Virus record (IMG/VR): IMGVR_UViG_3300045425_000037
Coordinates: 1 to 20,336 of that record
DNA from: a virus
Direction: 5' to 3' (one strand)
Length of the DNA stretch: 20,336 nt
Below, one piece after another: positions 3,571 to 20,336 of the stretch; the first letter of the stretch is position 1, and every line of letters begins with the position of its first letter. The notes beneath the pieces are model-generated. The model did not search any database, was not told the origin of the DNA, and worked only from the letters and a program-made list of their open reading frames with translations. A program made the position numbers and the translations under genes.

Positions 3571-3794
3571 GTGACCGATACATCGAATTCTGCTACTCAA
3601 AAGACGGCGGCCATACCTGGTCCAACTGGAAGCGCCGCAGCCTTGGCGAGCAGGGCGAGTACGCCGACCGCACCCGGATCCGGTTCAAGCAGCTAGGCCA
3701 ATCTCGGCAGTGGATATTCCGCTGGAGGGTATCTTCGCCTATCCTAGCGTCGTGCATGGGCGGGGTGGCTAACATGAAGGGGCTGGACGCATGA
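3567..3794 (+). CDS. Detached C-terminal segment of the gp10-like hub protein
   Basis: This 75-aa protein starts at ATG 3567 inside the ATGA overlap with the chimeric hub gene. Its core (CYSKDGGHTWSNWKRRSLG, then GEYADRTRIRFKQLGQSR and WIFRWRVSSPI) matches the C-terminal pattern of P22 gp10-family proteins: a strand pair followed by R-hydrophobic-x-(W/F)-K-x-(L/V)-G-x-x-R. In P22 gp10 the corresponding end runs YDKRVLWKRVGRIR and continues to the C-terminus. The 399 upstream hub residues plus these 75 give 474, almost the full length of P22 gp10 (472). I infer that an insertion moved the last propeller strand into a separate, translationally coupled polypeptide. There is no strong ribosome site, so expression probably depends on reinitiation. 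Confidence 0.8.
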   Translation: MSDRYIEFCYSKDGGHTWSNWKRRSLGEQGEYADRTRIRFKQLGQSRQWIFRWRVSSPILASCMGGVANMKGLDA

Positions 3795-4399
3795 GTTACT
3801 TGGTCATAGACGATTTCTGCGACGACCCTGAGCGCGTGCGAAAGTCCGCCTTCGCTGCTGGCTTCGATACGTGGAACCCGAACAAGGGGAGGGTCGGAAG
3901 TTCGGTGTACGAGGGCATGGGATTCTGGGGCGACCACGCGCTGATGCTGCGGGCGCTGATCCGTTCCGTCGGCGGTGTCGTGATCCCGAACAGCATGTTC
4001 TTCCGCGTGACGAACGTGGGCATGGAGCGGGCGTACATTCATTCGGATCGAGAGGCCGGGAACCATACCTGCATCTGCTACCTGACCGAGCATGACGAGC
4101 AGAGCGGCACGGCGTTCTACCGACACAAACGCACCGGCCTTGACGAGATGCCGTCATTTGCGCAGATGCAGGAGGACGGTATAGACGAGGAGCTGAAGGC
4201 CGATATGGTGTCCCGCGACCCTGCCAAGTGGGAGCAGACCGACTACGTGCGCGGCGCTTATAACCGGGCGCTGGTGTTCAAGGCCCCACTGTTCCACTCG
4301 CGGTTCCCACTGGAAGGCATCGGCGACAGTTTCGACAACGGGCGCTTGGTTTGGGCGAGTCATTTTTACAAGCTGGGTAATGCGGGTGAGTTGGTGTGA
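3791..4399 (+). CDS. 2-oxoglutarate/Fe(II)-dependent oxygenase-like protein (DUF6445-like)
   Basis: This 202-aa protein starts in an ATGA overlap with the detached hub segment. It shows a likely iron-binding triad: H84-S-D86 in AYIHSDREAG, and a distal H169 in PLFHSRFP followed by basic residues. The strands between them (HTCICYLTE, SGTAFYRHK, YNRALVFKAP) suit a double-stranded beta-helix fold. The arrangement recalls phage DUF6445-type oxygenases related to prolyl hydroxylases. Such enzymes oxidise protein or small-molecule substrates using 2-oxoglutarate and O2; the substrate here is unknown. It is followed through a GTGA overlap by a SET-domain gene, so the two are probably made together. 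Fold and metal site are inferred from motif spacing, not from a search. Confidence 0.75.
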   Translation: MSYLVIDDFCDDPERVRKSAFAAGFDTWNPNKGRVGSSVYEGMGFWGDHALMLRALIRSVGGVVIPNSMFFRVTNVGMERAYIHSDREAGNHTCICYLTEHDEQSGTAFYRHKRTGLDEMPSFAQMQEDGIDEELKADMVSRDPAKWEQTDYVRGAYNRALVFKAPLFHSRFPLEGIGDSFDNGRLVWASHFYKLGNAGELV

Positions 4400-10876: not shown

Positions 10877-11745
10877 CCACCGTAGTCACCACGACTCCAA
10901 TTGAACATACTAGCGACGCCACATTCCGTGTGTGGGCAGCGGAGGTCATCGCGCAACTGCTCGCAGTGGGCATCACGCAGACGGCGGACACGGGGCAGAT
11001 CAATACCGGCACCGTTGTACGGCCCGGAACGAATACGAACGCCGGTTATGCCATCTTCCGCTTCAACGATTCAATGCAGGGAACGGCTCCTATATTCTTC
11101 CGCATCGACTTCGGTACGGGCGGCGTCGCAACCGGCCCGCGTATGCGGCTCACGGTTGGCACGGGATCGAATGGCAGCGGCACGATAACTGGCATTGGCC
11201 TCGCCGCAACCACTATCGGTGGCGGCTCTACGCCCGCCAGCACCGTGACCAACTACGGATTTCGCATCTGCTACGTGGATGGATTCATTGGGTTTATGTG
11301 GAAACTTGGCGCCACGTTAGGAACGAACGTAGCGCTCGGGTTCTTTGCAATCGAAAGAAGCGTAGACAGCTCCGGCTCGGCAACTGCGGAAGCTGCGAAA
11401 ATTTATACTGGCGTAAACAATCCGGCAGTTCAGCAGGTTCGCTACGCGCTGGGCACGTCTGTCACCTTTGCGTCTGGCTCTTACTCGCTCATCCACGGCG
11501 GTTTCACGACCTCGCTCACGGGCGGCGCAGCACAGGTATTCAGGCACTATCAGGCGCTACCAAAGGTCGTTCCAAGCAAGTACCTGATGACCGTCCTGAG
11601 TGCCGAAATAGGTAATAACACCACGTTCACCGCGCAACCGATTGACGCGACCTCACACACCTTTATCTCCGGTGGCAGCAACGGCGTGCAGCAGGTCGGC
11701 CTTCCGGCTGCGGCGGGCCAAGTCATTGCGATGATCTGGGAGTGA
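10873..11745 (+). CDS. Putative virion appendage protein, beta-rich
   Basis: This 290-aa protein starts at ATG 10873, inside the ATGA overlap with the fibre gene. It begins MTTVVTTTPIEHTSDATFRV with a helix (WAAEVIAQLLAVGI), then a long Gly/Thr/Ser-rich beta pattern with few charged residues, for example FRIDFGTGG, MRLTVGTGSNGSG and GFFAIERSVDSSG. This composition and the position suit a structural appendage, possibly the outer part of a fibre or a virion-associated decoration. I do not recognise a specific named family. It is not an obvious hydrolase. Its stop is followed three bases later by a small reading frame. Confidence 0.65.
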   Translation: MTTVVTTTPIEHTSDATFRVWAAEVIAQLLAVGITQTADTGQINTGTVVRPGTNTNAGYAIFRFNDSMQGTAPIFFRIDFGTGGVATGPRMRLTVGTGSNGSGTITGIGLAATTIGGGSTPASTVTNYGFRICYVDGFIGFMWKLGATLGTNVALGFFAIERSVDSSGSATAEAAKIYTGVNNPAVQQVRYALGTSVTFASGSYSLIHGGFTTSLTGGAAQVFRHYQALPKVVPSKYLMTVLSAEIGNNTTFTAQPIDATSHTFISGGSNGVQQVGLPAAAGQVIAMIWE

Positions 11746-11748
11746 TGT

Positions 11749-11919
11749 ATGGCTGACCAACCCGTAGCCCCTGACGAGCCATTCGACAAGGCGGGCGCGA
11801 ACCCAACCACGTTGGCGGGAGACAACCTTGCGATTGCCATCGCCATCCTCACCGCTCCGGAAGTGCCTACGGGCGGTGGTGGCACGGGCGGAACTACAGC
11901 GCATGGATTTGTGACTTGA
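11749..11919 (+). CDS. Small 56-aa protein at the end of the fibre block
   Basis: ATG 11749 follows the appendage gene stop by three bases and the frame runs to TGA 11917-11919. The product starts MADQPVAPDEPFDKAG, has a short hydrophobic stretch (LAIAIAILTAPE) and ends in a Gly/Thr-rich tail (TGGGGTGGTTAHGF). The ribosome site is weak (GGGAGTGAT). Short proteins of this composition often accompany fibre genes, but no function can be given. It is the last gene before the 43-base gap preceding the endolysin. Confidence 0.5.
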   Translation: MADQPVAPDEPFDKAGANPTTLAGDNLAIAIAILTAPEVPTGGGGTGGTTAHGFVT

Positions 11920-11962
11920 GCAAGCCCCTACACCCCAGCGCGGCAAACCAAAGGATAGACAG

Positions 11963-12484
11963 ATGACCACCGTATTCGACAAATCCATGTCCCGCCTGCT
12001 GCCGATAGAGGGTGGCTTTTCTGAGGACCGCAAGGATCCTGGCAACTGGACGGGCGGCAAGGTCGGCGTCGGCAAGCTGCTCGGAACGAAATATGGCATT
12101 GCAGCAAATACCTACCCGAACGAGGACATCCGCAACCTTACGTGGGATCGGGCGAAATTCCTCTACAAGCGCGACTTTTGGGATGCCGTGCATGCCGACG
12201 AACTACCCGGCGCAGTCGCCTACAACGCTCTGGACGGAGCGATCAATAGCGGTGCCTCCCGGTCGATTCAATGGCTCCAGAAGTCCGCCGGGGTGGCGGA
12301 TGACGGGCGCTGGGGGCCGGTGACGCAGGCGGCTATCACGAAGGCCGACCCTAACGACCTCGTTTTGCGATACTGCGCATACCGCCTAGACTTCATGACG
12401 CGGCTTTCATCCTGGCCTACGTACGGTAAGGGCTGGGCGCGTAGAATCGCGCATAACCTGATCGTAGGGTCTGAGGACAACTAA
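11963..12484 (+). CDS. Endolysin: glycoside hydrolase family 108 (N-acetylmuramidase) with peptidoglycan-binding C-terminus
   Basis: This 173-aa protein starts at ATG 11963 after AAGGATAG. The N-terminal half shows the GH108 pattern: the catalytic Glu16 in the EGGF motif, DPGNWTGGKVG, GTKYGIAANTYP, then NLTWDRAKFLYKRDFWD and YNALDGAINSG. The C-terminal half (IQWLQKSAGVADDGRWGP and onward) is the PG_binding_3-type domain usual for this family. The enzyme cuts the glycan backbone of the cell wall at the end of infection. There is no N-terminal signal-anchor segment, so release presumably depends on a holin from the same cluster. Length matches family members of about 170-190 aa. It opens a tightly packed lysis cassette. 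Confidence 0.92.
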   Translation: MTTVFDKSMSRLLPIEGGFSEDRKDPGNWTGGKVGVGKLLGTKYGIAANTYPNEDIRNLTWDRAKFLYKRDFWDAVHADELPGAVAYNALDGAINSGASRSIQWLQKSAGVADDGRWGPVTQAAITKADPNDLVLRYCAYRLDFMTRLSSWPTYGKGWARRIAHNLIVGSEDN

Positions 12485-12744
12485 TGGACTTCTCATCGTG
12501 GGTCTATGCAGCGTTCTCCGCAGCCGTCATTGGCCTAGCGGTCGATCACTTTCGCGTGCGATCGGAGTTGTCCGGGGCCAAGGTTGACCTCGCCAATTTG
12601 CGGACTCACGTCGCAGAACACTACATCCGCGGGCCGGAAATGGAGCGGCTGGAGAAGGCCATTGCCGAACAGGGCGCACAATTGCAGCAATTGGTCGCCC
12701 TTGTCCACGAGCTAAAGGGCGCCCTTCACCAGACACGAGGGTAG
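12484..12744 (+). CDS. Small membrane protein with coiled coil (lysis cassette)
   Basis: This 86-aa protein starts at ATG 12484, overlapping the endolysin stop by one base. A hydrophobic N-terminal segment (WVYAAFSAAVIGLAV, about residues 6-20) is followed by a long charged helix with heptad-like repeats (LEKAIAEQGAQLQQLVALVHELKGAL). The topology resembles small phage lysis-region proteins with one membrane anchor and a coiled-coil tail. Whether it is an antiholin, a holin partner or something unrelated cannot be decided. Confidence 0.68.
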   Translation: MDFSSWVYAAFSAAVIGLAVDHFRVRSELSGAKVDLANLRTHVAEHYIRGPEMERLEKAIAEQGAQLQQLVALVHELKGALHQTRG

Positions 12745-12749
12745 GAGTT

Positions 12750-13028
12750 TTGGAAAATCAGGGGGCGGAATCCTCGCTTGAAAAAGTGAGGCGAGACTTG
12801 GATGCGCTGTTGCCAACAAGGAACAACAATACGACGAAGATAATGCTTTCTGGAGGCGGGTATGGCGTATGGGTTGCGCTGGCCTTATTCGCTTTCATGG
12901 TCGGATTGAATTGGTCTCTGAATACCCAGCTTAGCGACCAGGAACGGAAGATAGAGAGACTTGAAGATTACCTGTCGGCAATCTATCGGCAGGCACCCCA
13001 ACTGAAGCCACAGGATTACATGAAATGA
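12750..13028 (+). CDS. Single-span membrane protein, probable TTG start (lysis cassette)
   Basis: The 92-aa reading frame begins at TTG 12750, close behind TAGGAG. That spacing is unusually short, so GTG 12786 or ATG 12843 are alternative starts. The N-terminus is charged (ESSLEKVRRDLDALLP), followed by one membrane segment (GVWVALALFAFMVGLNWSL, about residues 38-56) and a polar helix ending KPQDYMK. One-span proteins with this layout occur in lysis clusters, but I do not recognise a family. It ends in ATGA with the proline-rich mini-gene. Confidence 0.62.
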   Translation: MENQGAESSLEKVRRDLDALLPTRNNNTTKIMLSGGGYGVWVALALFAFMVGLNWSLNTQLSDQERKIERLEDYLSAIYRQAPQLKPQDYMK

Positions 13029-13138
13029 GTACCCCGATTATCATCACTCCGCCACCACCGCCGCCACCGCCGCCACAACCGGGCGCTCCACAGTGTCCAG
13101 CACCGCCTCCACCGCCACCGAAAAAGCAGGAGAATTGA
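13025..13138 (+). CDS. Proline-rich 37-aa mini-protein
   Basis: ATG 13025 lies in an ATGA overlap with the previous membrane-protein gene, and TGA is at 13136-13138. The product starts MSTPIIITP and continues with nine consecutive prolines, a short QPGAPQCPAP segment containing a single cysteine, six more prolines and KKQEN. Together 19 of its 37 residues are proline. The strict four-base overlap and the good AGGAG at 13128-13132 serving the next gene suggest it is a real translated gene. The function is unknown; polyproline helices are rigid and bind partner proteins. It is too short to rely on homology. Confidence 0.5.
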   Translation: MSTPIIITPPPPPPPPPQPGAPQCPAPPPPPPKKQEN

Positions 13139-13139
13139 C

Positions 13140-13265
13140 ATGATCGAGTTCATCCTTGGCGCCGCTTCGGCGTCCGTGCTTTATTTCGCCTTCCCGGCGC
13201 TCGCGGTATGGGTTAACGGGAAGATCGCCCAAGCATGGGCGGTCATCAACAAGCCGAGGGAGTGA
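13140..13265 (+). CDS. Small hydrophobic 41-aa membrane protein (lysis cassette)
   Basis: ATG 13140 is eight bases after AGGAG at 13128-13132 and the frame ends at TGA 13263-13265. The peptide MIEFILGAASASVLYFAFPA continues with LAVWVNGKIAQAWAVINKPRE, giving one hydrophobic segment and a short amphipathic tail. Its placement between a proline-rich mini-gene and the holin candidate, two bases before the latter's start, suggests a lysis-related membrane peptide. No family recognised. Confidence 0.6.
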   Translation: MIEFILGAASASVLYFAFPALAVWVNGKIAQAWAVINKPRE

Positions 13266-13267
13266 AT

Positions 13268-13591
13268 ATGGGCGCTGACAAGAGATTCGACTTCACTTCC
13301 GTCATGGCAAGGGCATCGACATGGCTTGGCGTCATTGCAGCATCCGCCGCGGGTGGACTTCTGTTCTACGCCACCATGCCAGAGCGAGTGCAGAACCTAA
13401 TGCCGGACTGGACGCTGCTGGCACTCGGCGGAATCGGCATGGTGTGCGGTATCGCCACGCCGTTTGCGACCAGCTTCAAGCAGCGCAACCTGGGCCGCGC
13501 AACACAAGTTACCGTGACCACCGAGACAAAGGTGGAGGGCGACGTTACGCCGGAGGATGCAACCCGCATCGCTGAAAACGCGCAGCCATGA
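13268..13591 (+). CDS. Holin candidate with two membrane segments
   Basis: This 107-aa protein begins at ATG 13268; an upstream in-frame ATG at 13235 lies inside the previous gene and is less likely. Two membrane segments are visible (WLGVIAASAAGGLLFYA, residues about 19-35, and LLALGGIGMVCGIATPFATS, about 50-69), joined by a short loop containing MPERVQNLMPDW. The C-terminal tail is charged and hydrophilic. This is the class II holin layout. Holins form inner-membrane lesions that release the endolysin. The adjacent GH108 endolysin and Rz/Rz1 support the call. It overlaps Rz by ATGA. Confidence 0.75.
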   Translation: MGADKRFDFTSVMARASTWLGVIAASAAGGLLFYATMPERVQNLMPDWTLLALGGIGMVCGIATPFATSFKQRNLGRATQVTVTTETKVEGDVTPEDATRIAENAQP

Positions 13592-14112
13592 TCGCCGCCC
13601 TCCTGCTGAAATACTGGCGCTGGCTCGCGCTTATTGCATTGATCGCCGGAGTGTGGGCCTCGCTCTCCTACTGGGGCCACACGAAGTACCGCGATGGCGT
13701 GGCGTACCAGAAGGCGAAAGACAAGGCCGTATTCGATAAGCTCGCCGACCTGACCGCACGCACGAAAACCGCCGTCACCAACCGGGAGACCGAAATCAAG
13801 GGTCTGCTGGACTCATCCAACAAAGCCCGCGAGGAGGGTATCGCTCATGCAGTGGAAGAACAGCAACGCATTGTGGCTGGTGTTCGTGATGGGAGTCTCC
13901 GGTTGCGCGAGCAATGGCGTGGTTGTGAGGCCGCCCTTGCAGTGTCCGGTGATTCCTCCGCCGTCGGAACAAGCGATGACGCCGCCGACTTACGGGCAAC
14001 AGGGGCGGGCGATCTTATTCGAACCCTCGATGACGCCGATGTCCAAGTCGCCGAACTCCAGCGGTACGCCGTAGCTTGTCAGCGCGCCTTGCGACCGCTT
14101 GACATTCCGTAA
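13588..14112 (+). CDS. Rz: Inner-membrane spanin subunit (i-spanin, Rz-like)
   Basis: This 174-aa protein starts in the ATGA overlap with the holin candidate. A single N-terminal membrane segment (WLALIALIAGVWASLSYWG, residues about 12-30) is followed by a long, charged, helical periplasmic part (KAKDKAVFDKLADLTARTK, later HAVEEQQRIVAGV). A second frame inside it encodes a lipoprotein. This is the classic Rz/Rz1 arrangement, in which the pair spans the periplasm and fuses inner and outer membranes in the last step of Gram-negative lysis. The last 34 bases also encode the end of an opposite-strand gene. Confidence 0.85.
   Translation: MIAALLLKYWRWLALIALIAGVWASLSYWGHTKYRDGVAYQKAKDKAVFDKLADLTARTKTAVTNRETEIKGLLDSSNKAREEGIAHAVEEQQRIVAGVRDGSLRLREQWRGCEAALAVSGDSSAVGTSDDAADLRATGAGDLIRTLDDADVQVAELQRYAVACQRALRPLDIP
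13847..14074 (+). CDS. Rz1: Outer-membrane spanin lipoprotein (o-spanin, Rz1-like), nested within Rz
   Basis: This 75-aa product lies wholly inside the Rz gene in another frame. Its ATG 13847 sits eight bases after GGAGGG. The first 19 residues form a lipoprotein signal (MQWKNSNALWLVFVMGVSG), with C20 as the lipidated cysteine in a V-S-G-C lipobox. The mature part is rich in proline (RPPLQCPVIPPPSEQ), as usual for Rz1. It would be anchored in the outer membrane and bind the periplasmic end of Rz. Nesting within Rz is well known from lambda-like phages and makes the assignment firm. Confidence 0.85.
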   Translation: MQWKNSNALWLVFVMGVSGCASNGVVVRPPLQCPVIPPPSEQAMTPPTYGQQGRAILFEPSMTPMSKSPNSSGTP

Positions 14113-14414
14113 GAAGAAATCATTCGGAAGTAGTTGGTGCATCTGTCGGCTGCCAGCCGGTTCATGTAATTCGACATTGGCGCCTGCCCATCCTGCTCAC
14201 TCCGGCAGTACGAGCAGATGCGCCTGGATGCGTGCGTGACGAATTGACGGGAGCCGCAGCAGGGGCATTTTGCGGAAGTGGCTTCGGCTTTCGGTGTGGC
14301 CGACATAAGCAACGCCCTGCGCTCCAACTTCCTTCGCTCGGCGGCCTCTTGGCGCTTGTACATCTCTAGCGCGTATGCACCTGATGCGGCAATGGCGGGG
14401 GAGGTGAATGGCAT
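14079..14414 (-). CDS. Zinc-ribbon protein of unknown role, convergent with the lysis cassette
   Basis: This is a 111-aa protein on the minus strand. An N-terminal segment with a charged helix (EMYKRQEAAERRKLERRALL) is followed by four cysteines in two C-x2-C pairs (C50/C53 in KCPCCGS and C67/C70 in RICSYCRS), typical of a zinc ribbon. Such ribbons often bind nucleic acid or recruit protein partners. Its end overlaps the Rz coding region by 34 bases on the opposite strand. The most upstream start, ATG 14414, has only a weak ribosome site; ATG at residue 37 is an alternative. A tRNA gene lies 17 bases upstream on the same strand. Confidence 0.65.
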   Translation of the reverse strand: MPFTSPAIAASGAYALEMYKRQEAAERRKLERRALLMSATPKAEATSAKCPCCGSRQFVTHASRRICSYCRSEQDGQAPMSNYMNRLAADRCTNYFRMISSYGMSSGRKAR

Positions 14415-14431
14415 TATTTATCCCCGTGTTG

Positions 14432-14507
14432 TGGAGCAGGCTGTCGGGATCGAACCGACGACATCGAACTTGGAAGGATCGCGCTCTACCGGCTGAGCTA
14501 AGCCTGC
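14432..14507 (-). tRNA. tRNA-Gly, anticodon TCC
   Basis: The minus strand folds as a complete cloverleaf of 76 bases including encoded CCA. The acceptor GCAGGCT pairs with AGCCTGC over all seven positions, followed by discriminator T and CCA. The D-arm is GCTC/GAGC with loop AGCCGGTA. The anticodon loop is CTTCCAA, giving TCC, which reads GGA glycine codons. The T-arm is GTCGG/CCGAC with loop TTCGATC. The anticodon stem has one T-T mismatch (CGATC against GTTCG). Discriminator U is normal for bacterial glycine tRNAs. The mismatch may lower efficiency but does not disrupt the fold. Confidence 0.85.
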
Positions 14508-14770
14508 ATTGGAGGAGAGTTAGCAGAATCGAACTGCCGACCGCTTGTGCGTTATCCGGATTGGCGCATTAGCAGACACCCATGAAACCCCATAACACCC
14601 GGACTCACACGCCGGGCACCGCGGTCAGCTCACTCGGGGCTTAGGACCGGCGCTGTCGAGGAGCCGCCGCCTGCCACGCAGGAAACCCAATCACTGACTG
14701 CCGATCATTTTCATGAAACCGGGTGGTGTCGGCAAGCCCGGTGCGGTTGCCCGCTTGCAAGGGTGGTATA
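14508..14770. other. Non-coding stretch of about 260 bases with small hairpins
   Basis: No convincing protein gene is seen between tRNA-Gly and the 103-aa minus-strand gene. The stretch holds the tRNA-like remnant, a CCCGG/CCGGG hairpin (14598-14602 with 14612-14616) and a second hairpin ACCGGG/CCCGGT (14718-14723 with 14737-14742). Read on the minus strand, the latter is followed by TTTCATG, so it might act as a weak terminator of the recombination operon before the tRNA. No promoter stands out. Confidence 0.45.
14510..14585 (-). other. tRNA-like 3' half, possibly a decayed tRNA
   Basis: Just upstream of tRNA-Gly on the minus strand is a T-arm-like element, GGCAG-TTCGATT-CTGCT, followed by AACTCTCC and TCCA. 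I found no matching 5' acceptor (GGAGAGT or similar) within 130 bases and no convincing D-arm. It is therefore not annotated as a working tRNA. It may be a remnant of a second tRNA or a chance resemblance. Confidence 0.3.
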
Positions 14771-15082
14771 TCAGAGGTCGAGTCGGTTGAGCAAGTCGCC
14801 GATCTGACTGCTCAGCGAATCGGCGCGCGCCCGGATGTTGCGAAACTCGTAGGCGGCCGGCGACATGATCGAACTATCCACTGCTGTTGGAACCGCGCCT
14901 GGCTTCAATGTTTCCGGCCGCAGAACCGGGTCCAGCCTGTTCCGCAGCGATGAAATCAGGTCGATCGCCGTTTCCACGGTGTTCAACGCCATCCTTGCCT
15001 CGCCCTGGATGTTTGATTCCGGAGCCGCACATTCCGCCGTGCCAGCGCCGCTCATTTTTGCATTACAGCTTTGATCGTACAT
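14771..15082 (-). CDS. Hypothetical 103-aa protein
   Basis: The minus-strand gene starts at ATG 15082, seven bases after GAGGAGAAG, a strong ribosome site. The N-terminus has two cysteines and is polar (MYDQSCNAKMSGAGTAECAA). From about residue 31 the sequence is helical (LNTVETAIDLISSLRNRLDP), and the C-terminus is another heptad-like helix (RARADSLSSQIGDLLNRLDL). I do not recognise it. It is 20 bases downstream of the annealing-protein gene and probably in the same transcript as the RecE-like pair, so a recombination-accessory role is possible but unproven. Confidence 0.65.
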   Translation of the reverse strand: MYDQSCNAKMSGAGTAECAAPESNIQGEARMALNTVETAIDLISSLRNRLDPVLRPETLKPGAVPTAVDSSIMSPAAYEFRNIRARADSLSSQIGDLLNRLDL

Positions 15083-15102
15083 TTCACTTCTCCTCGGTTA
15101 AA

Positions 15103-16053
15103 TCACATGTTCGGGTTGTCGTCTTCCGCCGGCTGGGTGGTCACCTCGCCCGTACCGGTGTCGATATGCTCCTGTACGGCCGCTGGCGCCTCGGCAGGCT
15201 TCCCGGCGGCCCCCGCGTTCACGATAGCCGCCGTCGGCGACTGTGCGGCCGCTCCGGACTGATCGCCGAACCAGTCGGCCACCTTGCTGATGCCGTCGCG
15301 GATGCCCTTGTACACGGCGCCCAGGTCCACCAGATCGTCCGGAGTCAGCTCGGCCGTCGGCTTCTTCATCCGCTTCTCGATCAGGTTCGGACCGACACCC
15401 AGCTTGCCGAACTCGGTGACCAGCGCGCGGATGCGATCGACCATTGGCTTGTCCGAGCGGCCGGCCAGCGTCTCGCGGCACTTGGCGACCGCGGCGTCCA
15501 CCACGTCGCCGGGGATGACAGCCAGGATGCGGGCGCGCATGCGGCGGGCGCCCATGTTCGCCCCGATTTCGTAGATGTCCCGCTCGTCGGTCAGTACCTT
15601 GGCGCCGCCCTGCTTGTCCCGCAGGTGCTTCACGGTGAACTTCTGGGCGCTGTAAACGTTGGTCTCCAGATCCCAGCAGTACGCCTCCATCTCGGTCTCG
15701 CCATCGCGCCGGGACAGCTCCTTCATGCCGTAGTCGATGTTGCCCCAGCAGCGGGCCAGTTCCTCGGCCAGGCGAATCGAGGGGCCGCTGACGGTCTGCC
15801 CGCCGCGGGGGTAGGCATACAGCGCCTCATCGGCCAGTCCGGGTCGTGAGCAGGCTTCCATGACGCGCTGGAAGGCGATGGCCTGGTCGCGGGGGAACCG
15901 CTTGGCGATGACCAGCTTGCCCTGCGCCTCAGCGATTGCGCGCTCTTGCTCGATGGCGACGGCGCCGGCCGAGACGTGGGTTTGCAGGCCAGTACCGACC
16001 CGTGCGAAGGGATTGGCCGTAGCCGGTGCAGTGGTGGTGATTTCGTTGCTCAT
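15103..16053 (-). CDS. Probable single-strand annealing (recombination) protein paired with RecE-like exonuclease
   Basis: This is a minus-strand protein of 316 aa from ATG 16053 (GGAAG eight bases upstream). GTG 16059, overlapping the upstream TGA, would add two residues. Conserved-looking stretches include GKLVIAKRFPRDQAIAFQRV, the segment AYPRGGQTVSGPSIRLAEEL, MEAYCWDLETN, then DIYEIGANMGARRMRARI and LAVIPGDVVDAAV. This pattern belongs to a widespread phage family found next to RecE-type exonucleases, which makes a RecT-like annealing function the best reading. The C-terminus is a flexible acidic tail (PAEDDNPNM), as in other DNA-annealing proteins that contact partners. The function is inferred mainly from the neighbour and remembered family pattern; I cannot identify canonical RecT or Erf motifs by eye. 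Confidence 0.68.
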   Translation of the reverse strand: MSNEITTTAPATANPFARVGTGLQTHVSAGAVAIEQERAIAEAQGKLVIAKRFPRDQAIAFQRVMEACSRPGLADEALYAYPRGGQTVSGPSIRLAEELARCWGNIDYGMKELSRRDGETEMEAYCWDLETNVYSAQKFTVKHLRDKQGGAKVLTDERDIYEIGANMGARRMRARILAVIPGDVVDAAVAKCRETLAGRSDKPMVDRIRALVTEFGKLGVGPNLIEKRMKKPTAELTPDDLVDLGAVYKGIRDGISKVADWFGDQSGAAAQSPTAAIVNAGAAGKPAEAPAAVQEHIDTGTGEVTTQPAEDDNPNM

Positions 16054-16055
16054 GG

Positions 16056-16847
16056 TCACTTCTTCCGGTAGGGTCGTTGAACGAGTTGGATGCCTGGGAA
16101 CTCCTGTCGGACCTTGGCATCGTGGTAGGCGTCCAGCAGGCGGCGGAACTCTGCCTTACCGGCGGCTTTATCTTCCGGCACCAGTTCCATCACGGTGCAG
16201 GGGTAGCGGTTGAGCGAGCGGGTGGTCTGGATGACGAGGAACAGGAACCCCGGCGTTTCGCCGAATTGATCCTCGTAGCCTTCGGTGTACATGCCGTCCT
16301 GGAGCCAGTAGCCATAGTCCTCGATGGCGCGGCTGAACCGGCCAATCTCGTCACACGACTTGGCGTCCACCAGCACCGGGTAGTTTTCCAGTCGTTTGTC
16401 CCGGCGGTTCTTGCACAGCTCGCCGGTTTGCTTGTCTATCCAGAAATAGGACTCCTCGATCGCGCCAGCCTGTTCCAGCAACCAGCGGGCCGTCGGGTGC
16501 GCCATCGCTGAGCCGTGCATAAGCTCCAGCTTCTTCGCATCGTCGGCGTCCAGAACGATTTTGCCCTTGTTTTCGGCATCGAACTCTGCGGACGCTTCCT
16601 TCCCCTTGGTCGTGCGCCGGTCGAACTTCGGGGCAGCGACATACTCGCGCTGGAAGCGATCAGGCTCCAGCAGGCGGGCATGCAGCGCGTCTCCGAAATC
16701 AGCCGCCATTACCTCGTCATCTTCCGGGCAGTTGCGCGACCATTCGAGCAGAGCTGGGGATTCTTTGAATAGTTCCAGACCGGACTTTGAAATACCCGGC
16801 GCGGCATGGTATTCGGAATTGGTCATCTCATGTACGCCGGGCTGCAT
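16056..16847 (-). CDS. RecE-like 5'-3' exonuclease (exodeoxyribonuclease VIII C-terminal type, PDDEXK)
   Basis: This is a minus-strand protein of 263 aa; ATG 16847 is preceded by AGGAG with six bases spacing. The N-terminal NSEYHAAPGISKSGLELF segment and FGDALHARLLEPDRF are signatures of the RecE nuclease domain. The catalytic region shows E-E-S-Y-F-W, NRRDKR and VDAKS, corresponding to the E, D and D-x-K of this PDDEXK family. YWLQDGMYTEGYEDQFG and FLFLVIQTT complete the fold. RecE degrades the 5' strand of double-stranded DNA ends to leave single strands for annealing. It lacks the long N-terminal part of E. coli RecE, as is normal in phages. It is followed by the annealing-protein gene. 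Confidence 0.88.
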   Translation of the reverse strand: MQPGVHEMTNSEYHAAPGISKSGLELFKESPALLEWSRNCPEDDEVMAADFGDALHARLLEPDRFQREYVAAPKFDRRTTKGKEASAEFDAENKGKIVLDADDAKKLELMHGSAMAHPTARWLLEQAGAIEESYFWIDKQTGELCKNRRDKRLENYPVLVDAKSCDEIGRFSRAIEDYGYWLQDGMYTEGYEDQFGETPGFLFLVIQTTRSLNRYPCTVMELVPEDKAAGKAEFRRLLDAYHDAKVRQEFPGIQLVQRPYRKK

Positions 16848-16850
16848 GGC

Positions 16851-17081
16851 TTACTCCTGACCCGGCGCCGGGATCGGCAAATCCTGCTGATCCGGATCGA
16901 CAACTTGCGATTTCGGATTCAGGATTTCGATGCCCTTTGCGTACAGATCCATGACCTCCTCGGTGGTCAGGCGCTCGACTTCGATCTGGTTGGAAACCGT
17001 CTTGCGGGCGTCGGACTTGCTGTCGGCCAGGACGAAGGTTTCTGGTTTCTTCGGGGTGACGCGGTAAACGTATGCGGCCAT
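16851..17081 (-). CDS. Small hypothetical protein, first gene of the minus-strand recombination operon
   Basis: I place the start at ATG 17081, six bases after GGAGA, giving 76 aa (MAAYVYRVTPKKPETFVLAD, and so on). A longer frame from ATG 17147 would begin inside the divergent control region and lacks a ribosome site. The product looks like a small alpha/beta protein with a Pro-rich tail (PDQQDLPIPAPGQE). Its stop is three bases from the RecE-like start and its last codon region supplies that gene's ribosome site, so the two are tightly coupled. No family recognised. Confidence 0.68.
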   Translation of the reverse strand: MAAYVYRVTPKKPETFVLADSKSDARKTVSNQIEVERLTTEEVMDLYAKGIEILNPKSQVVDPDQQDLPIPAPGQE

Positions 17082-17141
17082 GTTTGTCTCCGGTTGGTGG
17101 GATGGGTTGTGAGGGGACATCGTTTCATACCCGAAACCCAT

Positions 17142-17157
17142 TGTCAACAGTTTGACA
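17142..17157. promoter_or_regulatory. Operator-like inverted repeat TGTCAA-N4-TTGACA overlapping the promoter
   Basis: TGTCAA (17142-17147) and TTGACA (17152-17157) are exact reverse complements separated by CAGT. The right arm is the -35 box of the plus-strand promoter. The left arm read on the minus strand is also TTGACA and could serve as a divergent -35, although the minus -10 (AACGAT near 17119-17124) is poor. A dimeric regulator or symmetric divergent promoter is plausible. Confidence 0.5.
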
Positions 17158-17179
17158 GCGGAAAGTTAACCCCTATAAT
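17152..17179 (+). promoter_or_regulatory. Consensus sigma70-type promoter for the right-hand plus-strand operon
   Basis: TTGACA (17152-17157) and TATAAT (17174-17179) match both consensus hexamers exactly with 16 bases between them. Transcription would start near 17186, about 20 bases before the HTH gene at 17207. It faces away from the minus-strand recombination genes and would drive the helicase/nuclease operon in early infection without a phage factor. Confidence 0.85.
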
Positions 17180-17206
17180 CGGCCCAATCCACAAAAGGCG
17201 GCAGGC

Positions 17207-17362
17207 ATGACCCCACTAAAGAAACAACGTGAGCAGCGCAGGAAGAAGGTCGTTGCATTGTGGCGTCGCGGATTCTCGCACGCTGAGATTGGCAATCTGC
17301 TGACTCCGAAGGTATCCAGGCAGCGGATATTTGCCATCTTGAAGGCGGAAGGAGTTATCTGA
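17207..17362 (+). CDS. 51-aa helix-turn-helix mini-protein
   Basis: ATG 17207 to TGA 17360-17362; a moderate ribosome site (AGGCGG) precedes it. The N-terminus is very basic (MTPLKKQREQRRKKVVALW). It is followed by a helix-turn-helix-like segment: RRGFSHAEIGNLL as the first helices, and TPKVSRQRIFAILKAEGVI as turn plus recognition helix. This resembles sigma-70 region 4 or small phage regulators that recognise DNA by one HTH. It is the first gene after the strong promoter and immediately precedes the helicase (TGAATG junction). It could bind the inverted repeat upstream and autoregulate, or help recruit the helicase; neither is shown. Confidence 0.66.
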   Translation: MTPLKKQREQRRKKVVALWRRGFSHAEIGNLLTPKVSRQRIFAILKAEGVI

Positions 17363-18847
17363 ATGCAGTTGCGCCCCTATCAACAGGAGCTAGTTCAAGC
17401 GGCACGTCGTGAGTTCGCTGCTGGAAAGCGCCGTGTGATCCTGCAAATGGCGACCGGTGGCGGGAAAACCCCTGTCGGGTGTTCGATCATCCAGGCTGCT
17501 GCCAACAAAGGCCACGAAGTATGGATGGGGTGCCACAAGAATTTCCTTGTGGAACAGGCTAGCGAAAAGTTGAAGCAGTTCGGCGTTTACCACGGCGTTG
17601 TGTCCTCCAGTAGCAAATACAACGCCAGACAGAAAGTCCATGTCTGCGGCCTGGGCGTACTGAAGAACCGCATGCACGCAATGCGGGAGCCGTCCATATT
17701 CGTATGGGACGAATGTCACCACATAGGTGCCCGGACGTGGGTTGAAATAATGGAAGCGTTCCCGAACACTTTCCATCTCGGCCTCACAGCCACGCCAACC
17801 CGACCTTCTGGCGCCGGCCTTGGCCAGTGGTTCGACTCGCTTATTATCGGGCCATCGGTGGCCGACCTGATCGCATGGGGAAAGATGCATCCTGGCGAGG
17901 GACTATGCGACTACCGCCTGTTCAGCGCCAAGAATTCCGTGCCTGCGGAGGGGCTACATTCTCGCGGCGGCGACTTTGTAGCCGAGGAGCTTGGCGAGCT
18001 TATGGATACAAAAGCTATCATCGGCGACGCGGTGGACGAGTTCAAGAAGCACGCCAGCGACCGTAAATTTCTCACATTCAGCCCAACGATCAAATTCAGC
18101 GAACACATCGCAGAAAGCTATCGGGATGCCGGCGTGAACTGCGCCCACTTGGACGGCAGCACGGACAAGAAAACTATTCGCCATGCCGTGCGTGACCTCG
18201 TGGACGGGAAGATACAGGGAATCACGTCGGTAGCGATATTCCTAGAGGGACTAGACGCCCCTGCGGTGAATTGCGTTCAGTGGTTGCGGCATACGAAAAG
18301 CGTAGTCGTGAAGATGCAGGGCGATGGTCGCGGGATGCGCAACGAGCGCAGCAAGGATCATCTGGTGATATTGGATCACGTCCAGAACTGGAAGCGTTTT
18401 GGTCTTCCTGACGATCCTATCGACTGGAGCCTGGAGGGCAAAACAAAAGCGAAGGCGCCCGGCGAAACGTCTATGACTCGGGAATGCGAGCACTGTTATT
18501 GCCGCTACAGGCTGTCGTCTCTGCAATGTCCTGAGTGCGGGCACAAGGTCGTATTCAAAGAGCGGGTTATCGAGCAGGAAGATGGCGAGTTGGTGGAAGT
18601 CGATCTGTCCGACCGCAAGCCTGTCGAGCTTTCGCCTGAACGCAAGGCGCAGGCGATGGCAAAGTCAATCGCCGACCTAATCGCTCTCGGTCACTCCGAA
18701 GGCCGCGCCCGCCACATCATCGAGGCTCGCAATGAGAAAAAGGCGATGCAGGACGAGTTAATTGCATCCGGCTGGAAACGGTCGGAAGTGTGGGCAATGA
18801 AACCGAAACAATTGAAGGAGGCGCTGAATGTCGCACAAATTCCCTGA
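17363..18847 (+). CDS. DEAD/DEAH-like superfamily 2 helicase with C-terminal zinc ribbon
   Basis: This 494-aa protein starts at ATG 17363 directly behind the HTH gene. Motifs appear in order: Q-motif-like RPYQQELVQAA (residues 4-14), Walker A ATGGGKT (30-36), Walker B DECH (116-119), motif III-like LTATPTR (about 138-144), motif V region (SVAIFLEGLDAPAVN) and motif VI QGDGRGMR. Such enzymes use ATP to unwind or remodel nucleic acid. After the helicase core, cysteine pairs C-x2-C and C-x2-C (ECEHCYCR and QCPECGHK) form a zinc ribbon, and a helical tail ends the protein. It resembles phage helicases that act in replication or recombination. Its 3' end overlaps the next gene by 20 bases. Confidence 0.92.
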   Translation: MQLRPYQQELVQAARREFAAGKRRVILQMATGGGKTPVGCSIIQAAANKGHEVWMGCHKNFLVEQASEKLKQFGVYHGVVSSSSKYNARQKVHVCGLGVLKNRMHAMREPSIFVWDECHHIGARTWVEIMEAFPNTFHLGLTATPTRPSGAGLGQWFDSLIIGPSVADLIAWGKMHPGEGLCDYRLFSAKNSVPAEGLHSRGGDFVAEELGELMDTKAIIGDAVDEFKKHASDRKFLTFSPTIKFSEHIAESYRDAGVNCAHLDGSTDKKTIRHAVRDLVDGKIQGITSVAIFLEGLDAPAVNCVQWLRHTKSVVVKMQGDGRGMRNERSKDHLVILDHVQNWKRFGLPDDPIDWSLEGKTKAKAPGETSMTRECEHCYCRYRLSSLQCPECGHKVVFKERVIEQEDGELVEVDLSDRKPVELSPERKAQAMAKSIADLIALGHSEGRARHIIEARNEKKAMQDELIASGWKRSEVWAMKPKQLKEALNVAQIP

Positions 18848-19058
18848 GATGGTAGAAATCTGGAAAGCCAACCGCGAACACTGCACAGCGGCGGCGATCA
18901 TCGAGGAAGGAGAGGTCGTGTCCGGATCCATGCCTGGCGACGACTACAAGCTCGCATGGATCGACGCCGATAACTATCTCGCGATGCCCGCGCTGAAAAA
19001 GCATTTCGATGCCGTAGCTAAAACAACTCCTAAATCATGGATTAAGCAAGTACGATGA
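18828..19058 (+). CDS. Hypothetical 76-aa protein
   Basis: ATG 18828 lies within the end of the helicase gene, eight bases after AAGGAGG. The product (MSHKFPEMVEIWKANREHCT, then AAIIEEGEVVSGSMPGDDYK and a C-terminal helix) looks like a small alpha/beta protein. I recognise no domain. The tight overlap with both neighbours (ATGA into the next gene) places it in the helicase/nuclease operon. Its role could be as an accessory factor; nothing in the sequence tells which. Confidence 0.68.
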   Translation: MSHKFPEMVEIWKANREHCTAAAIIEEGEVVSGSMPGDDYKLAWIDADNYLAMPALKKHFDAVAKTTPKSWIKQVR

Positions 19059-19195
19059 TTATCTTGAAGCCAACCGACACGTCACTGGCCGCGATCGAGG
19101 AACATGTCGCACGACAACTCGCTCGCGCCGATGTCGTCACGTTAACTCGCGCACAGATTCTCGCGCTTCTGGAGGCCGTCCGTGTCGGAGGGTAA
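19055..19195 (+). CDS. Hypothetical 46-aa protein
   Basis: ATG 19055 sits in an ATGA overlap with the preceding gene and the frame ends at TAA 19193-19195. The peptide MIILKPTDTSLAAIEEHVAR is followed by a helix-rich tail (LTRAQILALLEAVRVGG). The frame is supported by overlap structure and by the VRR-NUC ribosome site lying inside its end. No function can be given. Confidence 0.55.
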   Translation: MIILKPTDTSLAAIEEHVARQLARADVVTLTRAQILALLEAVRVGG

Positions 19196-19631
19196 AATCT
19201 GGCGCGACATACGCGACAAGCTGTCGCACGGCCCTGCGCGATGGTTCAGGAACGAAGTTGGCAACGGTGTAGCAGTGCGCCACAAGCACCCGTACACCCG
19301 GCAGGCGATCATCACCGCCTGCATCGAACTGGCCGCGAAGATGGGCGGATCGGCAGCGCGGATACACTTCGGCCTGACCGTTGGCTCCGGCGACCTAATC
19401 GGACTGGAGACGGTCGTGGTGACTCAGGCGATGGTAGGCCGAAAAGTAGCCGTTTTCACGTCCTGCGAGACAAAAACGGCGACCGGAAAGGTTCGGGAGG
19501 AGCAGTCGAATTGGCAGAATTTCGTTAATTCAGCAGGCGGGATAGCGGTCATCGCCAGGTCGGTCGAGGACGCTGAAAAAAAGATTGCCGAAAGTGTTGA
19601 CAAGCTGTTGCGAGGCGGGGATGATCGCTGA
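19182..19631 (+). CDS. VRR-NUC domain nuclease (PD-(D/E)XK family)
   Basis: This 149-aa protein starts with GTG 19182, six bases after GGAGG, which decides the start. The catalytic core is visible: GSGDLIGL with D71, CETKTATGK with E96 and K98 (the E-x-K), and Q108 in EEQSNWQNF. It is followed by GGIAVIARSVEDA. VRR-NUC domains occur in FAN1 and in stand-alone phage nucleases that cut branched DNA or Holliday junctions. Here a junction-resolving or end-processing role alongside the helicase and the RecE/annealing pair is likely. The N-terminal 45 residues are basic (DIRDKLSHGPARWFRNEV) and may contact DNA. Confidence 0.88.
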   Translation: MSEGKIWRDIRDKLSHGPARWFRNEVGNGVAVRHKHPYTRQAIITACIELAAKMGGSAARIHFGLTVGSGDLIGLETVVVTQAMVGRKVAVFTSCETKTATGKVREEQSNWQNFVNSAGGIAVIARSVEDAEKKIAESVDKLLRGGDDR

Positions 19632-19652
19632 CACACCAACCGAGGACGTAAA

Positions 19653-19766
19653 ATGAAACGCTACGACGACCCCGTAAACCCCTGGCTCCGCGAGTTCCGC
19701 AAAGACGTGAACCGGGTGATTTTGGCCTGGTGCAATTTCTGTCGGTGGATGCGGGGTGGGAAATGA
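19653..19766 (+). CDS. Hypothetical 37-aa protein
   Basis: ATG 19653 to TGA 19764-19766, ending in an ATGA overlap with the next gene; a weak GAGGA site is nine bases upstream. The product MKRYDDPVNPWLREFRKDVN has an aromatic, basic tail containing two cysteines (WCNFCRW). It is too short to assign. The overlap supports translation. Confidence 0.5.
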   Translation: MKRYDDPVNPWLREFRKDVNRVILAWCNFCRWMRGGK

Positions 19767-20212
19767 GTATTGACACCCCCGACCTACAGGCGTTGATTGA
19801 TCTGAGTAAAGTGTTGGCCCACGACTTCGTTGAATGGGTAGATGGCCGTATGTCGCAGACGCAGTTTGTTTTCGATATGGCCCAGCACCTTGTTGACCTG
19901 AAACGCATCGTAGAAGCCGCCCCCACGCTGCCCGGCGCTGGTGGTGGGGATGAGTTTCCGCATTGGGCTTCCGTAAAGCCAACCTGCTCCGGCGTCTACG
20001 GTGTGCGCGGCTATCAGCCTGGAGTAAGTAAGGCTGACCAATTCGAGGCCGCCGTCCTTGTGCGCGAATACGAGGGTGAGCTTGTCTGCAATCTTCACGA
20101 ATCCACAAGCGAGGATAACCTTGATCGCTGGGCGCCCCTTTCGGAAATCAGCGACAAGTTCGAGTGGCTGAAATTCGACTACGCCGCCCTACCCCCGCAG
20201 CAGGGAGGTTGA
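19763..20212 (+). CDS. Hypothetical 149-aa phage protein
   Basis: ATG 19763 lies in the ATGA overlap; a TTG/ATG-less extension to 19730 is less likely. The N-terminal part is helical (DLQALIDLSKVLAHDFVEWV). The C-terminal 75 residues show a pattern seen in many phage early proteins: PTCSGVYGVRGYQ, an AAVLVREYEGELVCNLHES segment and WAPLSEISDKFEWLKF. That domain looks like a small beta-rich fold of unknown function (similar in style to DUF551-type proteins). It is probably part of the early operon. No catalytic motif is visible. Confidence 0.68.
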   Translation: MSIDTPDLQALIDLSKVLAHDFVEWVDGRMSQTQFVFDMAQHLVDLKRIVEAAPTLPGAGGGDEFPHWASVKPTCSGVYGVRGYQPGVSKADQFEAAVLVREYEGELVCNLHESTSEDNLDRWAPLSEISDKFEWLKFDYAALPPQQGG

Positions 20213-20214
20213 GG

Positions 20215-20336
20215 ATGGACGCTAAGTCTTTGGGAAATGAGCCCGCGTTCCCGGTGATTCCACCAGTCGGCGATTCAGCGGGCTACCCGTACCCATCCAG
20301 CGGCATCACCCTCCGCCAGCACTACGCTGGGTTGGC
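20215..20336 (+). CDS. Hypothetical phage protein, 5' part only
   Basis: ATG 20215 follows a GGAGG (20204-20208) and the frame is open to the right edge (40 codons plus two bases). It starts MDAKSLGNEPAFPVIPPVGD and reaches SGITLRQHYAGL. The (G/S)-(M/I/L)-T-x-R-(Q/E)-x-(F/Y)-A motif is frequent in small phage proteins of unknown function. The end of the gene is outside the window. Confidence 0.65.
   Translation, partial: MDAKSLGNEPAFPVIPPVGDSAGYPYPSSGITLRQHYAGL

Follow-up and report, generated by a model that had tools for sequence, protein, structure and literature searches.

An inverted repeat built into the -35 box of a consensus promoter, at a point where two operons diverge, raises the question of whether the repeat is an operator through which one regulator controls both directions, as an earlier note on this DNA had proposed, or whether it arises from something else. 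The window, that is, the whole stretch of DNA analyzed here, is a virus record of 20,336 bases, and the junction between its divergent genes spans 125 bp (17082-17206). Inspection of the plus strand at 17142-17179 gave the sequence TGTCAA-CAGT-TTGACA-16 nt-TATAAT, in which the left arm of the dyad (17142-17147), the CAGT loop (17148-17151) and the right arm (17152-17157) are followed by a 16-nt spacer (17158-17173) and by TATAAT (17174-17179). The right arm is at the same time the -35 box of a rightward promoter, on the plus strand, with TATAAT as its -10 box. The promoter, the repeat TGTCAA-N4-TTGACA over its -35 box and the divergence of the operons had all been correctly described in the earlier note.

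The hexamers of the rightward promoter match the sigma70 consensus at 12 of 12 positions and their 16-nt separation falls within the 16-18 nt of sigma70-type promoters. Transcription would start near 17186, around 21 nt ahead of the ATG at 17207. A promoter scan of positions 11000-20336 returned this site as the sole 12/12 match, and it was also the single match to TTGACA-16-TATAAT in the entire record when up to two mismatches were allowed. Likewise, the exact dyad TGTCAA-N4-TTGACA occurs once in the record. As a null model, we shuffled the 125-bp junction 2000 times with its dinucleotide composition preserved, and none of the resulting sequences (0/2000) reached the rightward score of 12/12. 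Both TTGACA and TGTCAA were present in 0.1% of these shuffles, and in 0.2% of those made from the related junction of virus record L003 (see below), whereas some perfect 6-bp inverted repeat, with a loop of 0-20 nt, appeared in 47% of the shuffles of the window junction. The promoter is far above chance expectation and the 6-bp dyad per se is not, the unusual part being that both arms match the -35 consensus. Because 6-bp repeats are so common in shuffled sequence, the dyad alone is weak evidence for an operator.

The two operons run away from the junction with the exonuclease VIII side leftward and the helicase side rightward. The first gene of the leftward operon, on the minus strand, is an ORF of 76 aa (16851-17081) whose product has counterparts at two homologous junctions (34-37% identity in L003, 25% in L009) and had no match in Pfam or PHROG. 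It is followed by an exonuclease VIII, or RecE-like PD-(D/E)XK nuclease (16056-16847, minus strand; phrog_412, E 4.2e-74; DUF3799, E 2.2e-15), and further downstream by a phrog_3657 protein (15103-16059, minus strand; E 2.6e-101), which is of unknown function in PHROGs and has certain Gordonia phage relatives annotated as ssDNA binding protein. The rightward operon, on the plus strand, starts with the gene for a small basic protein of 51 aa (17207-17362), a candidate HTH protein with an HTH_23 match below the cut-off, and continues with a superfamily II (SF2) DNA helicase (17363-18847; phrog_16, E 4.7e-68; Pfam ResIII, E 1.1e-26). Past the helicase lies a VRR-NUC or Holliday junction resolvase-like gene (19182-19631, plus strand; phrog_93, E 5e-11; phrog_5702, E 3e-9), and on the other side of the junction a 111-aa ORF (14079-14414, minus strand) weakly matched the cysteine-rich CPCC family (E 0.00067), below the cut-off.

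Read on the minus strand, the left arm of the dyad (17142-17147) is also TTGACA, and could serve as the -35 box of a leftward promoter, with a candidate -10 box, AACGAT (17119-17124, minus strand), at a 17-nt spacing. This -10 is weak, matching the consensus at 3/6 positions, and, given the -35, its score was equaled by 7% of shuffles (P 0.07); a TG at 17127-17126 on the same strand would make it an extended -10. The best minus-strand score was as high as that of the window in 1.7% of the shuffled junctions. The leftward transcript would start near 17112 and have a leader of around 31 nt, with a GGAG, ahead of the ATG at 17081. Since its -10 is poor, the leftward promoter is only plausible when judged from the window alone. 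A scan of the window record for TTGACA-17-TATAAT with up to two mismatches gave a sole match at 19597, off the junction, and misses the junction because the leftward -10 has three mismatches.

We found two homologous junctions, in a metagenome virus record of 41,773 bases (L003) and in a record of 31,335 bases (L009). The gene order of L003 is that of the window, with a 76-aa-like protein and the exonuclease leftward and, in the equivalent position on the other side, a 51-aa-like protein (61% identical to that of the window) and the helicase rightward. Leftward, L009 codes for a 76-aa-like protein and an exonuclease 45% identical to that of L003, and its diverging gene specifies a 78-aa protein with 33% identity to the 51-aa one. 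At all three junctions, the rightward side opens with a small gene for a candidate HTH protein. Exonuclease alignments against viral contigs yielded L003/L008/L079 (one contig), L009/L080 (one contig), L010 and L081-L084; in L010 and L081-L084, whose ORF lists were glanced over, a matching divergent small-gene junction was not seen, and they were not used. The window exonuclease alone gave no match in viral contigs, and exonuclease searches of genomes gave none. The helicase retrieved from viral contigs only L002, a partial and distant match that was not used, and searches for homologues of the 76-aa protein, including those with the L009 version, produced no matches.

The L003 junction contains a rightward promoter, TTGACA-16-CATAAT (3923-3950), and a leftward promoter, TTGACA-17-TTTACT with a TG (3940-3912; P 0.0008 in shuffles), both of them strong and interlocked, with their arms in the opposite order to those of the window. 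With up to two mismatches, the whole L003 record holds a single 16-spaced and a single 17-spaced site, and these are the two junction promoters, in a junction whose 93 bases make up 0.2% of the record. In L009, an exo-side promoter, TTGACA-17-CCTAAT (3659-3687; P 0.05 in shuffles), is the one match of the 17-spaced scan of the record with up to two mismatches, and the one match of the 16-spaced scan lies away from the junction. No good promoter was found on the HTH side of the L009 junction, where the best score of 7 was reached by 84% of shuffles, and there is no dyad over the exo-side -35 of L009.

Comparison of the three junctions indicates that the consensus -35 of the exo side and its 17-nt spacer are conserved in all of them (3/3), the rightward consensus promoter in 2/3 and the dyad geometry of the window in 1/3. 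Paired promoters are present in 2/3 junctions, since both recur in L003 and the exo-side one alone in L009. A dyad that works as an operator should keep a fixed spacing and orientation among relatives; in the two relatives available, it is swapped in L003 and absent from L009. The earlier note, which had named the loss of the second arm in relatives among the outcomes that would speak against a single regulator for both operons, is supported in part at most: the sequence of the second arm is kept in both relatives, the junction is divergent and the element plausibly serves both directions, but the dyad is not kept as a unit.

Because the exo-side TTGACA with its 17-nt spacer recurs and the dyad does not, two -35 boxes fit these data better than a dyad operator. 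From the comparison of sequences, we consider it fairly probable that the dyad consists of two -35 boxes, one on each strand with four bases between them, which belong to a back-to-back pair of sigma70-type promoters. Its right arm would start the rightward operon, for the 51-aa protein and the helicase, and the left arm the leftward operon, for the 76-aa protein, exonuclease VIII and the phrog_3657 protein, through a leftward promoter that is predicted to fire. The putative starts are separated by around 74 bp in the window and, in L003, by around 52 bp. Given the length of DNA covered by a bound RNA polymerase, two of them would hardly fit, if at all, suggesting that two bound polymerases would hinder each other. 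The promoter pair might then tip expression toward one operon or the other like a see-saw, and a regulator could possibly tune it.

We also examined unrelated viral loci with the same dyad promoter. Its exact 18 fixed bases occurred in 61 stretches of viral contigs, from 22 context families, a count that comes from this one arm spacing and is not a measure of dyad enrichment. Including the window (62 rows), the layouts were 34 tandem rightward, 12 inside an ORF, six divergent, four with both genes leftward and six at contig ends, as assigned by a crude gene caller that labeled the window itself as 'inside' by way of a spurious 134-aa ORF. Most unrelated loci are tandem and the leftward -35 has no obvious gene there, indicating that the dyad also arises in other ways. 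An opposite-strand -10 matching at least 5/6 positions was found in 4/6 divergent loci and in 8/52 of the others (P 0.014), or, by family, in 4/6 versus 3/14 (P 0.078), comparisons that omit the window and, because they lack upstream sequence, three loci (L039, L046 and L051) in the former and two families in the latter. This excess leans toward a reading as two promoters at the divergent junctions.

Several of these unrelated loci have features of their own. In the family of L022, L026, L031 and L066, the arms of the core lengthen to 11 bp in L022 (2260-2310) and L031, with matched changes on both sides (GAGG..CCTC versus GACC..GGTC), and these two are likely to represent a true palindromic site over a -35; the L022 site is located downstream of an Hsp20-like gene (phrog_432). 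In the families of L058 (3938-4030) and L036 (1210-1327), the dyad promoter immediately precedes genes for late sigma factors (phrog_234). The family of L033, L044 and L058 carries several copies of TGTCAA plus a perfect opposite-strand TTGACA-17-TATAAT.

Alternatively, the dyad may be an operator whose two arms are bound by a dimeric regulator, perhaps the 51-aa protein, that blocks sigma70 at the rightward -35 and at any leftward one in a Cro-like autoregulation, a possibility that we regard as rather unlikely. Consistent with an operator, the arms are one helical turn (10 bp) apart, the small candidate HTH gene comes first on the rightward side of all three junctions, and L003 contains a longer palindrome, TTGACAAG-GG-CTTGTCAA, with 8-bp arms and a 2-nt loop. 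Additionally, the 14-mer GGGCTTGTCAATAG, which spans the exo-side -35, is identical in L003 (3930-3943) and L009, while their -10 boxes and the other junction sequence differ; the window has a run of TTGTCAA in common with L009 and the pattern TTGTCAAYAG in common with both relatives. Since 14 conserved bases exceed what a -35 box needs, a protein site over the exo-side -35 is possible, and the 11-bp arms of the unrelated L022 and L031 suggest that operators of this kind probably exist. However, as described above, the window and L003 do not agree in the order and spacing of the arms, and the dyad is missing at this place in L009. Moreover, the 6-bp dyad of the window is no longer than a -35 box, a size of repeat held by nearly half of the shuffles, and ends exactly at the edges of the hexamers, with not one further base pair gained upon extension. 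No second copy of the dyad within two mismatches was found in the window, and the exact CTTGTCAATAG occurs once in the record of each relative, indicating that it is not a repeated site in them.

The lack of a significant family or fold match for the 51-aa protein also counts against the operator. Its HTH_23 match (E 0.018, 15.3 bits) is under the curated cut-off of 24.6, and all its other HTH matches in Pfam were under every curated cut-off as well. AlphaFold2 predicted helices at residues 3-20, 25-32 and 38-48 (pLDDT 81, pTM 0.47), and a PDB fold search with this model returned nothing significant (best Z 3.1), the first Foldseek match being the DNA-binding domain of GcrA (E 0.64). The last helix gave a by-eye impression of likeness to sigma70 region 4, which we regard as no more than a lead: Sigma70_r4_2 matched 1/3 members (E 0.038), and there were no sigma factors among the 35 Foldseek matches. 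Low E-values to BURRH repeats and designed repeat proteins were discounted, as they arose by adding up weak matches to repeats. Homologues of the 51-aa protein were found in viral contigs in L003 only, and none in phages (E up to 0.1), plasmids or bacterial and archaeal genomes. Against phages, the L003 version had no matches and the L009 version just two, in rIIB genes (E 3 and 4). The protein could be a DNA-binding protein, and its sole tie to the dyad site is its position. The earlier proposal of this protein as the junction regulator is backed by its location, but not by its sub-cut-off HTH matches or by any significant PDB fold.

A narrower version of this idea, quite unlikely in our estimation, would cast the 51-aa protein as a minimal repressor of the Cro type that uses the very -35 consensus as its half-site (in the form TTGTCAAYAG at the exo side). 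Such a repressor would compete with sigma70 region 4 for both -35 boxes and flip the phage between the recombination and helicase operons, and, because the half-site would double as the -35, the site could move and swap its arms from one relative to another with its function kept.

It is very unlikely that the second arm is there by chance, with the rightward promoter alone being real and the leftward operon using another or weaker promoter. The weak leftward -10 of the window and the abundance of 6-bp dyads in shuffles would agree with this, but both hexamers rarely coincide in the shuffles of either the window or L003 junctions, and both relatives again carry the exo-side TTGACA, at an identical 17-nt spacing. 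Finally, a symmetric bidirectional promoter with one -10 common to both directions is almost certainly not what this junction holds, as, even if transcription in two directions would leave one short stretch, the -10 candidates at 17119-17124 and 17174-17179 are around 50 bp apart and have nothing in common.

Returning to the pair of back-to-back promoters, an inverted repeat over a -35 box at a divergent junction need not mean an operator; a consensus -35 box on each strand gives the identical pattern, and it is the comparison of relatives that separates both readings. Should the pair indeed keep two polymerases from binding together, it would provide a very compact balance of the recombination operon versus the helicase operon, and the 51-aa protein would be a small and easily tested candidate to tilt it.

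Divergence of exonuclease VIII and helicase genes also occurs in phages PY223, MQ-4, PPpW-3, KLEP18-1, Mano, Mica, Persinger, Arya, KA2-1 and PT1, with the nuclease of PPpW-3, PT1 and PY223 being assigned by place, homology or a PD-(D/E)XK label and not by an exonuclease VIII label; phages phiV10, phiARM81mr, Edno5, YenM_29.18, BUCT006 and IFTN2 have other gene layouts. As in the window, exonuclease VIII is leftward and the SF2 helicase rightward in Arya, Mano, Persinger and Paracoccus phage KLEP18-1. In several of the exonuclease/helicase phages a regulator is predicted at the junction or close to it, which in Arya and Mano is on the exonuclease side, unlike the 51-aa gene of the window. The junction sequences are dissimilar. 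By eye, the junction of KLEP18-1 resembles that of the window in having opposed TTGAC-type hexamers (TTGACC-16-TATGTT leftward, TTGACG rightward), and its regulator did not align with the 51-aa protein. With the exception of KLEP18-1, opposed and adjacent strong promoters were not seen at the distant-phage junctions scanned, indicating that the paired promoter is not general to this layout. The divergent layout is ordinary for phages, and the back-to-back pair of -35 boxes is a local solution.

A limited search of the literature found no promoter switch for phage exonuclease and helicase operons, which does not prove its absence in print. In the divergent cI/cro switch of phage lambda, the gene for a small DNA-binding protein is first behind one of the divergent promoters. 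The window is alike in that a candidate gene of this kind comes first, and differs in that we recognized no repressor gene on the opposite side and no second dyad. In Escherichia coli, symmetric bidirectional promoters have starts flanking, or inside, a shared -10 (PMC12825309). They resemble the window in the divergent transcription from one short region and the possible competition of polymerases, and differ in that they share one -10, whereas the candidate -10 boxes of the window are far apart and its -35 boxes adjacent.

Among published systems, the Pc/Pr pair of the conjugative plasmid pLS20 comes closest in kind, with a strong consensus promoter and an opposed one that overlap where a regulator gene begins (PMC4207663). 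Its authors discuss that the pair is occupied by only one polymerase, and polymerase competition and the regulator RcoLS20, which binds operators and loops the DNA, together make a switch (PMC4207663). The reading favored by its authors is that the -35 of one promoter coincides with the -10 of the other (PMC4207663), whereas the window would have back-to-back -35 boxes, and the regulator of the window is hypothetical. The probable arrangement in the window is compact yet of a familiar kind.
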